Assembly: GCA_032622095.1 (NCBI GenBank)
Contig: CP136062.1
Span: 198,161,887-198,225,886 of the forward strand
From: Siphonodentalium dalli
Taxonomy: Eukaryota; Mollusca; Scaphopoda; Gadilida; Siphonodentaliidae
Reading direction: 5' to 3'
Length of the DNA stretch: 64,000 nucleotides
The position numbers were made by a program, and so were the translations under genes. Positions 20,706 through 35,704 of the stretch are shown piece after piece (the stretch's first letter is position 1; every line of letters begins with the position of its first letter). The notes under the pieces were generated by a model, which saw nothing but the letters and a program-made list of their open reading frames with translations, made no database searches and had not been told where the DNA came from.

Positions 20706-20718
20706 TACCTCACATCCA
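20706..20718 (+). repeat. Target-site duplication (left) of the U4-U2 retroposon
   Basis: TACCTCACATCCA here is repeated exactly at 21054-21066, directly after the A-tail. This is the hallmark of target-primed reverse transcription. Confidence 0.85.
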
Positions 20719-21053
20719 GAGCTTTGCGCAGTGGCGGTACCATAGCCAATGAGGTTTATCCGAGGCGTGGTTATTGCTAGGTCTGATGCTCATTCGATCG
20801 CTTCTCGGCTTTTTGGCTCGAGCCCGTGCTGTGAGATACGTCCCCGACGATGGTCACCCCATCGGACGGGACTTCCACGGTGTGGGTTCGCAGCCTGAGG
20901 AGGACGAGTGGTCGTGACTGACTGACGGACTTCCGCTTTAGCGGGGACTGACCCCGACAGGCAATTTGACCATCTCGTAAGGGTGGGTCACCTCTTTCGG
21001 GGTGCTCCAGCCGATATGAGTGGTCCGCAATAGCCCCGGGTCTAAAAAAAAAA
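20719..21053 (+). mobile_element. Chimeric snRNA-headed retroposon (U4 + U2 heads, SINE-like body, A-tail)
   Basis: 20720-20780 matches the first ~61 bases of U4 snRNA: AGCTTTGCGCAGTGG, TAGCCAATGAGGTTTATCCG and TTATTGCTA are intact, about 90% overall by comparison with the known U4 sequence. After a 16-bp linker, 20797-20819 matches the first 23 bases of U2 snRNA (ATCGCTTCTCGGCTTTTTGG, one mismatch). A ~220-bp body follows, with a Pol III B-box-like GGTTCGCAGCC at 20885-20895, ending in a run of A at 21044-21053. Exact 13-bp target duplications flank the element. The body recurs without the snRNA heads at 33597-33818, so it is a repeat family and not a one-off pseudogene. Neither snRNA segment is long enough to be functional. 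Confidence 0.85.
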
Positions 21054-21066
21054 TACCTCACATCCA
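21054..21066 (+). repeat. Target-site duplication (right) of the U4-U2 retroposon
   Basis: Exact copy of 20706-20718, starting at the base after the A-tail. Confidence 0.85.
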
Positions 21067-32679: not shown

Positions 32680-32925
32680 ACTAGCAGGTTAGCCCGCCAC
32701 TGGCGGCATTCTCAGAAACATGACTATATGAGAGTATATGAGCGTATATGAGCAAGGACACGGGCGCCTGCGAAATTGGACACGATTTGACCCGTCCAAA
32801 ACACTCCCCGGACAAAAGCACACCTATTTTCGTCGAAATCCGCCAGTTTTACCCGATTTAACCTTGAATTGACTATTTTGAAGGTCAATTTTGAAGATCA
32901 GGTCCTGATCACGATTTGATAAAGG
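32680..32925 (-). mobile_element. Helitron-like 3' terminus on the minus strand with minisatellite unit
   Basis: Read on the minus strand, one GGTCAAATCGTG-type unit (32760-32920) is followed by a hairpin (CCGCC agt GGCGG, about 32693-32706), a short spacer and CTAG|T ending at 32680. The arrangement parallels 1-660, but the hairpin sequence differs. These are therefore two related but distinct Helitron subfamilies sharing a minisatellite. Confidence 0.6.
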
Positions 32926-33596: not shown

Positions 33597-33818
33597 TTTT
33601 TTGTATTTTTTTGTTTGGCCCGGATCTATTGCGGACCACTCTTATCGGCTGAGCACACCAAAAGAGGTGACTCACCCTTACGAGATGGTCAAATTGCCTG
33701 TCGGGGTAAGTCCCCGCTAGAAGCGGAAGTCCGTCAGGACCACTCGTCCTTAGGCTGCGAACCCATGCCGTGGAAGTCCCGTCCGATGGGGTGACCATCG
33801 TCATCTGGCTCACGGAAC
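33597..33818 (-). mobile_element. Second copy of the snRNA-headed retroposon body
   Basis: Read on the minus strand, it shares GACGATGGTCACCCCATCGG, GACGGGACTTCCACGG, GGGTTCGCAGCCT, GACGAGTGGTC, AGCGGGGACT, CCCCGACAGGCAATTTGACC and GTGGTCCGCAATAG with 20850-21040. It then has an A-rich tail in place of the run of A. The B-box-like GGTTCGCAGCC is conserved. The copy starts near GACGATGG, so it lacks the U4 and U2 segments. It is either 5'-truncated or belongs to an ancestral headless form. Confidence 0.8.
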
Positions 33819-33829
33819 AAAAAAACAAC

Positions 33830-35704
33830 TGTCGGCATTACATTGACCATTCGGCCCATTTGCAACAACGCCATGTTGCCTATATCGCGGCGTTGCGAAC
33901 ACTTTGGGGTTTTGTTATAATAACTAATAGATTGTCATGATATTGAAGCATCTGGTGAATGATATGTAGATGTCAGCTTATATTTGCACATTCCGTATAC
34001 AATTCGCTTAATTTTGGTGTGATTCATATTCTTGATTACACGAAGGTGGTAAATTAGTCTGCACTTTAACATATTATTTTATGTATATTTAACGAATACA
34101 CGACGAACGTGTAAATTTGACATTGTAATACGTTCTCCTAACGTACGATCGATTTACGTCGATAAAAGTCTTATTTTTCAAAATTTTAAGCTGAGACTTC
34201 GTGTGTCTGCGTGCAATACTTATATATTCTTAAAATGACAGAGTACAACAGGGGGGGGGGCGAAATTTGTTTACGAGACGTGAGGTAGGGGGGTTGGTGG
34301 GTACCCGAGGCCGGAAACAGTTTTTGACCACGTTTTTTGCATTTTTTTTTCATTGACATATTTTCAACTGTTTTAAACATATTTGTTTATATGTTGTGGC
34401 TTGTTGCAATATGAGAAGCACTAATACATTCAATATTGTTATAATTACCCCCATAAGTTGATATAAAATGGAAAAATAGTGAATATTGTGGGGGTGGGTC
34501 CCAAAATTTTCATTGATTTTTTTTGCGCGCAAATATTTTTTATTGTTTCTGTTTCAGCTTGCTTGGCAGTTTTTATAATGAAAATTGTCTAGTTCACTGT
34601 GTGGTTCAATAAAAAAATACTTCAGATAGCTCTAGGGTGGGGTGAACTTAATGCAGTCTGACAATATCAGCTAACAACTCATGACAGAATATTAATTACA
34701 ATAATTCTTATACTCTTTATTCATACAGTTAGTTGATGTATGAGTGTAATGTATGAAATAAGTATTTGTATCAGTGTTTGTACACTAAAATTGATTGCAT
34801 ATCAGCATATGTGATACAATTATGGCCATGTGACCCTCAACGCAGGGCAACTCATTTTATTTTTAACCCTTCGAACACTATGGCCCCAGAGCATTAGTAG
34901 CACCGCCCCCACTCGTTCAGATAACCGCCGGTATTCTCAATGTATCAGATTAATGTAGAGTTAATAATATATAGTAGACACAGGTAGACATATAATAGTA
35001 AATCAAGAGTACAGTCGGTATACTGTAAAGAGAAGACCAAATTGGAGTTATCTTCCCTACACCAACACAATGACGTTATGCTTACTGTGACCTCATCTCC
35101 ACGGTCACATGTCACTAAAGTGCACATCCGTGTATATGGATTTGGCACTAAATTGACCATCCGCGTTCAAACTCAAAGGGTTAAACATTATTTTAGGCCT
35201 AGTCCTAAGTCGTAATGCGAGGTCGGGTCGGTGGTCATGTAGGCATACATAAAAGCTAATTCATATGCACATTTTCCTTTTTGGTATTACTATAGGCTCT
35301 AGGCCTACTAGTTGATGCTGGTTGATGTCTGAAAAAAAGATAAATTTAATTTTGTGTAATTTTTTATTCTATTATAGGCCCTAACACTGGCCCTAGTTAT
35401 TTTTTGTTGTCATTCCAGGGGATTCAACATATTTTTCATCTACTCACACAGATGAATAGGCTGGGTTATAAATTTACCAATATAATCACATCATATTCTA
35501 CCTTTGTTGATAGCTTAGAGTTCAATTTAGTTGAAATTATCGCTGATTACTGCTGATTATCGCATAATTATCAGCCAAGAAAATATTTGTCTTGTACATG
35601 TTTGTAAACAGGAAGTAACATTTAATTTGGTCTTTCAAAGAAGGGACCAATATAGAGCGGTTGGTCGTTTTTACAGAGGGGACCAACATAAAGCGTTGTA
35701 GTAG
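33830..35704. other. Unassigned intron stretch
   Basis: Contains a run of 10 G at 34251-34260. No gene or repeat boundary was recognised. Confidence 0.4.

Follow-up and report, generated by a model that had tools for sequence, protein, structure and literature searches.

The window, a stretch of 64,000 nt of Siphonodentalium dalli DNA, carries at 20719–21053 a retroposon that lies between two perfectly matching 13-bp copies of the target-site duplication TACCTCACATCCA (20706–20718 and 21054–21066, given without strand). Read on the plus strand, it consists of an extra G (20719), nucleotides 1–61 of U4 snRNA (20720–20780), a 16-nt linker composed of GTCTGA and TGCTCATTCG (20781–20796), nucleotides 1–22 of U2 snRNA with one change (20797–20818), a SINE body of about 225 bp (20819–21043) and a tail of 10 A (21044–21053). 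The G, between the left duplication and the U4 segment, was probably templated by an RNA cap. A first-pass annotation made from the sequence alone had described about 61 U4 bases starting at U4 base 1, a 16-bp linker, 23 bases of U2 and perfect 13-bp duplications; all of this holds apart from the U2 segment, which is 22 nt long and carries the change. It had also placed the duplication directly against U4 base 1, where the single G in fact intervenes.

The U4 segment is identical to the genome's U4 genes and is matched by the Rfam U4 model (RF00015) at 20720–20782 with 58.8 bits (whole-window E value 1.5e-10; cut-off 46), the sole match at or above the cut-off in the window. It is not a complete U4 with both halves, as the copy stops at nucleotide 61. 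The Rfam check that the first pass had suggested for both heads thus recovered U4, and the 22-nt U2 piece received no score in the window scan; its identity is instead given by the genome's own U2 genes, whose nucleotides 1–22 it equals save for one C-to-T change, and by the longer U2 heads of relatives, the diverged ones of which keep U2 nucleotides 4–46. Rfam scans of the window and of the tandem arrays described below returned nothing but U4, U2 and one sub-threshold CRISPR match. The genome's snRNAs resemble those of animals, and a plant origin was accordingly discarded.

Across the genome (2.23 Gb in nine contigs), a 34-nt query for the U4–U2 junction, with up to two mismatches allowed, found 13 places, all of them exact, and a reversed control pattern found none. 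These comprise nine dispersed copies, one rearranged piece (C6:133611285, L016), in which U4 fragments form a fold-back, and three copies that sit within U4 genes, in one cluster on C5 and one on C9 (C5:31178294, C9:75470660 and C9:75484621). Because two dispersed copies, at C1:89.06 and C5:205.38 Mb, share 1,650 bp including the SINE at 99.3% and were counted as one event, and another two stand in tandem at C8:38.93 Mb, we count about seven insertion events. The nine dispersed copies are only 0–6 substitutions apart in 359 alignment columns (indels uncounted, L016 excluded), so the U4-headed subfamily looks young. Flanks differ among the 13 places, and target duplications differ where they can be called, as the first pass had anticipated for a mobile family; a one-off snRNA chimera or template-switch pseudogene is excluded by the recurrence of the exact junction. 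With its short body, A-tail, target duplications and many copies, the element is a SINE.

A genome search with the body gave 628 first-look candidates, 40 of which were scored. The recurrence of the body at 33.6 kb in the window, also reported in the first pass, is real, although that copy (33617–33813, minus strand, boundaries drawn by eye) is an old relative that has neither a U4 nor a U2 start and instead adjoins, on its upstream side, a diverged fragment of the repeat Q introduced below (33876–34110, minus strand; BLASTN 82% over 236 bp to L103). The TGAC short repeat inside the body varies among copies, with about nine extra units in L014 (550–620) and one in the C8:38.93-Mb copy L006.

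Perfect duplications were called in three U4-headed copies, those in the window (13 bp), at C5:205 (17 bp) and at C6:226 (15 bp). At C8:38.93 and C8:90.73 the same word stands on either side of the copy and the first bases of U4 are missing, the copy at C9:207 has an imperfect duplication, judged by eye, and that at C5:69 has none. In full-length dispersed copies, U4 +1 is preceded by an untemplated G. A duplication was called for ten copies outside the arrays (three U4-headed, six R-headed and one Q-headed; R and Q are described below). In eight of them exactly one extra G sits between the duplication and +1, and the remaining two have GCC in one case and no extra base in the other, whose duplication ends in GG. 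At the same position, −1, all 12 uninterrupted U4 heads compared have T or C, never G. In LINE-type reverse transcription the cap can serve as template for an additional G, and the G seen here is as expected of a presumably capped RNA copied to its end.

The three copies inside U4 genes retain the region upstream of U4. At least 42 complete U4 genes were scored in the genome (at least 28 on C5, 8 on C2 and 6 on C9). The U4 start of the C5 resident (L009, C5:31178243) follows the neighbouring U4, at 31175123, by one 3,120-bp period, and L009 matches that unit at 99.6% over 684 bp upstream and 99.1% over 929 bp downstream; the order is U4 promoter region, U4 nucleotides 1–61, GTCTGATGCTCATTCG, the U2-headed SINE, an A-tail, and then U4 from nucleotide 31 to its end, or from nucleotide 29 if the preceding AA is counted. 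The two C9 residents (L013 and L014) share this 5′ junction, with U4 resuming at nucleotide 37. Their flanks match other U4 loci on C9 at 80–92% upstream and 74–96% downstream, so they look like genes interrupted in place rather than retrocopies of a whole chimera, and since they are 92% alike over 902 bp, C9 may hold a single insertion that was duplicated. A C/T site is polymorphic among residents and dispersed copies alike: L014 has C and L009 and L013 have T, and among the dispersed copies the window and C9:207 have C and the other seven T. None of the residents is now an exact parent, as L009 has a 14-bp deletion, L014 the TGAC expansion, and L013 private changes and a displaced promoter box.

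This box, ACACC, is common among the genome's snRNA promoters. In the 90 bp upstream of 12 of them, it lies at −56 to −60 in 11 (U1 3/3, U2 2/3, U4 3/3 and U5 3/3, the U5 start being defined only to within 3 nt), and the rate at random points of the window is 0.0063 for the same interval. A further U2 copy outside this table (C8:666564, L065) has no such box. We take ACACC to be a putative PSE, the site bound by SNAPc. The residents carry it at −58 (L009), −60 (L014) and −48 (L013). Within 70 bp upstream, it is absent from all nine dispersed U4-headed copies (U4 positions offset by 2 in this count) and from all six dispersed R-headed copies; at the dispersed Q-headed loci L091 and L095 it lies at −69 and −35 or is absent.

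Other relatives carry heads that come from dispersed repeats rather than from a known snRNA. The R head begins ATCATCATCGTTATGG and comprises 34 bp and a further ~55 bp, and the Q head begins ATCATACGCTATTTCGC and spans about 41 bp; each is followed by U2 nucleotides 1–22 and the body. Most R and Q heads end, before U2, in TG[AC]TCATTCG or a close variant, and such junctions, U4-headed ones included, number 148 with up to two mismatches (control, 0); in many R-headed relatives the last 10 nt before U2 are TGCTCATTCG, as in the window's linker. Two other accounts of the ~97 bp upstream of U2 in these relatives, which we call X, were rejected: it is not a U2 promoter, as U2 gene loci match only in U2 itself, nor a separate RNA gene, as all 40 scored X places have SINE sequence after it. 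The first 34 bp of X belong to repeat R. Rfam gave only sub-threshold matches to R, and hence no name, and we found no origin for the ~55 bp that separate R from the Q-shared end. The window itself matches the 3′ flanking sequence of R at 115–600, where the matches are in tandem, and at 32713–32919.

The repeats also exist without the SINE. Among the best 40 of 253 candidates for an R query spanning the insertion point, all 40 cross the join without a SINE-sized gap, and 31 reach the end of the query or come within 2 bases of it, one of the 40 being the left edge of the L018 array. Among the best 40 of 461 for Q, all 40 cross the join, mostly at a length 15–20 bp greater than the query and in one case shorter. 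Both queries are biased towards sites that lack the SINE, and scoring was confined to the top candidates, so these numbers establish that such sites exist and do not give their share. Measured from the captured start, repeats R (L071–L074) and Q (L101–L103) carry the snRNA-type box ACACC at −58 to −60, and they are possibly snRNA-like transcription units of their own. At filled R sites the box is at −58 in 12 of 16 tested, shifted in two and mutated in two. It is at −59 or −60 in the filled Q sites L088 and L099 and the SINE-free Q sites L101–L103, and L085 has ACGCC at the box position. Filled R sites have no target duplication, and they may reflect a single event multiplied along with the repeat.

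The most diverged form that we read, the L019 array on C2, has a body 75–83% identical and keeps U2 nucleotides 4–46 (43 identical bases), for which the Rfam U2 score reaches at most 47.1 bits (cut-off 46). A second stretch of it, GATACGTCCCC, weakly resembles U2 (score 29, reached by 0 of 1,000 mononucleotide shuffles); the window body scores 22 against U2, reached by 22 of 1,000 such shuffles. Judging by what each form retains, the heads would have been acquired in the order U2, Q, then R or U4.

We consider it probable that this SINE has no promoter of its own, is driven by host snRNA-type promoters and captures its heads by insertion. Master copies would sit a few dozen bases past the start site of an snRNA gene or an snRNA-like repeat, where the host's upstream promoter, with its box near −58, would make a capped RNA consisting of the 5′ end of the host RNA, the SINE and the A-tail. 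A LINE enzyme would prime on the A-tail and copy this RNA to the cap at new sites, leaving the extra G. A new copy, having left the promoter behind, would normally be dead unless it came to lie behind another snRNA-type promoter, in which case a new head would be added. In the lineage of the window element, a U2-headed SINE most likely inserted, as the final step, after nucleotide 61 of a U4 gene and then came to use the U4 promoter. The box upstream of the residents, its lack in the dispersed copies tested and the presence of both C/T alleles in both groups would fit a scheme in which residents are the masters and dispersed copies their dead offspring. Transcription, its assignment to Pol II, the cap, the LINE partner and the order of events are inferred. 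On this view, the double head would be the trace of one SINE having inserted repeatedly, each time behind a different snRNA-type promoter. More broadly, we lean, with some caution, towards promoter hopping, in which the SINE is transcribed only downstream of an snRNA-type start, its stacked U2, Q, R and U4 heads log its former hosts, and snRNA arrays serve as nurseries. Counting against promoter capture are the want of an exact parent among the residents, the chance that the C9 pair goes back to one duplicated insertion, the missing box in L065 and in one of the three tabulated U2 promoters, and the length of the U4 ‘duplications’ in the residents (31–33 nt on C5 and 25 nt on C9, versus 12–17 nt in other non-array copies). 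Given these lengths and the lack of any duplication at filled R sites, the resident structure could also stem from the end of a U4-headed cDNA recombining with a U4 gene.

Such recombination forms part of an unlikely alternative, in which reverse transcription switched templates from a truncated SINE RNA to U4 RNA at nucleotide 61, ran on to the cap, and produced a chimera that later entered U4 genes by pairing of cDNA ends. Chimeras of snRNAs with LINE-1 are known (PMC13174262), the six bases GTCTGA at the junction have no assigned source, and the C5 and C9 residents share their 5′ junction, differ at the 3′ side and have the long ‘duplications’. However, a chimera at a random site, lacking a U4 promoter, should not spread, whereas about seven events share the junction, and the R and Q heads follow the same pattern at box-bearing repeats. 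We also regard as improbable that a LINE with a preference for snRNA-type genes places the SINE there, with head gain a by-product of site preference. Residents occur in two U4 clusters at one 5′ junction, entry near one R site was repeated, and LINEs that target U2 genes (Utopia) exist (PMC4640811); yet the dispersed copies with called duplications lie at differing sites, and the junction occurs in one C5 unit only against at least 28 complete U4 genes there. Site preference and promoter capture are compatible.

It seems very improbable that the element is an ordinary SINE transcribed from a Pol III promoter within its body, with the heads as passengers. The B-box-like motif that the first pass had noted is present (GGTTCGCAGCC, 20885–20895), although it lacks the A of what we take to be the consensus, GGTTCGANNCC. 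ARAGORN (bacterial settings) found no tRNA in the window, and the Rfam scans of the window and the arrays showed none of the 7SL, tRNA or 5S heads, with their internal Pol III promoters, that define classical SINEs (SINE1/2/3). The starts of full-length copies fall on U4 +1 and, in U4, R and Q hosts alike, at a fixed distance from ACACC, and the cap-like G likewise argues against Pol III.

The nearest known kind of element is SINEU, a snRNA-headed SINE reportedly mobilised by Tx1-Mar LINEs: here too the 5′ head derives from snRNA genes, U4 and U2. Kojima (2015) reportedly described crocodilian SINEU elements with U1- and U2-derived heads and recurrent addition of U1 or U2 to the 5′ end of SINEU-1. 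The likeness lies in an snRNA-derived head on a SINE; the U4 head, the non-snRNA Q and R heads with an snRNA-type box, and the copies inside U4 genes set the present family apart. To our knowledge, how SINEs gain or change heads has mostly been argued from consensus sequences. As proposed source loci, SINE-free sites and offspring occur here in one genome, head acquisition by promoter capture becomes directly testable. We suggest that tandem snRNA gene arrays can be retroelement nurseries, in which the loss of one unit is probably tolerated.

SINEU is named as snRNA-derived in PMC8010984. The U1–U6 snRNA/LINE-1 chimeras (PMC13174262) likewise carry an snRNA piece on the 5′ end of a retroelement, each formed in a single event, whereas here one junction recurs at 13 places, also in U4 genes. 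LINE-1 promoter co-option and 5′ transduction, as described in the same source (Law and Burns 2026), similarly let a host promoter drive a retroelement that carries host 5′ sequence along, and involve a protein-gene promoter, splicing and two insertions, in contrast to the snRNA-type promoters, the SINE and the several rounds proposed here. Utopia elements also live in snRNA genes, but unlike this SINE they are protein-coding and target-specific, and the accessible text mentions no snRNA head (PMC4640811). The literature open to search yielded neither a U4-headed SINE nor any account of a SINE that resides in an snRNA gene and acts as a source, and the U4 head, the layered heads and the visible promoter-bearing source loci appear to be new in that literature.

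Some minor observations concern the surroundings of these loci. SINEs form tandem arrays at L017 (C6:205614200–205617800), L018 (C4:119796100–119800000), L019 (C2:191569900–191574000) and L006/L008 (C8:38.93 Mb), where a copy of the target duplication separates the units and A-tails vary in length; the target sequence GAGAATCTTCGTC is common to the R-headed array on C6 and the U4-headed one on C8. On the reverse strand of L053 (~642–100, in the C2 U4 cluster), about 1 kb downstream of a U4 gene, a U2-like start, GCTTCTCGGCCTTTTGGGTAAGATCAAAGTGTAGTA, has an unrelated continuation and is perhaps a different U2-headed element. Diverged full-length U2 matches (125–145 bits) occur at C5:203.8–204.8 Mb near a 920-bp U2 gene array and perhaps represent a U2-derived satellite or pseudogenes.
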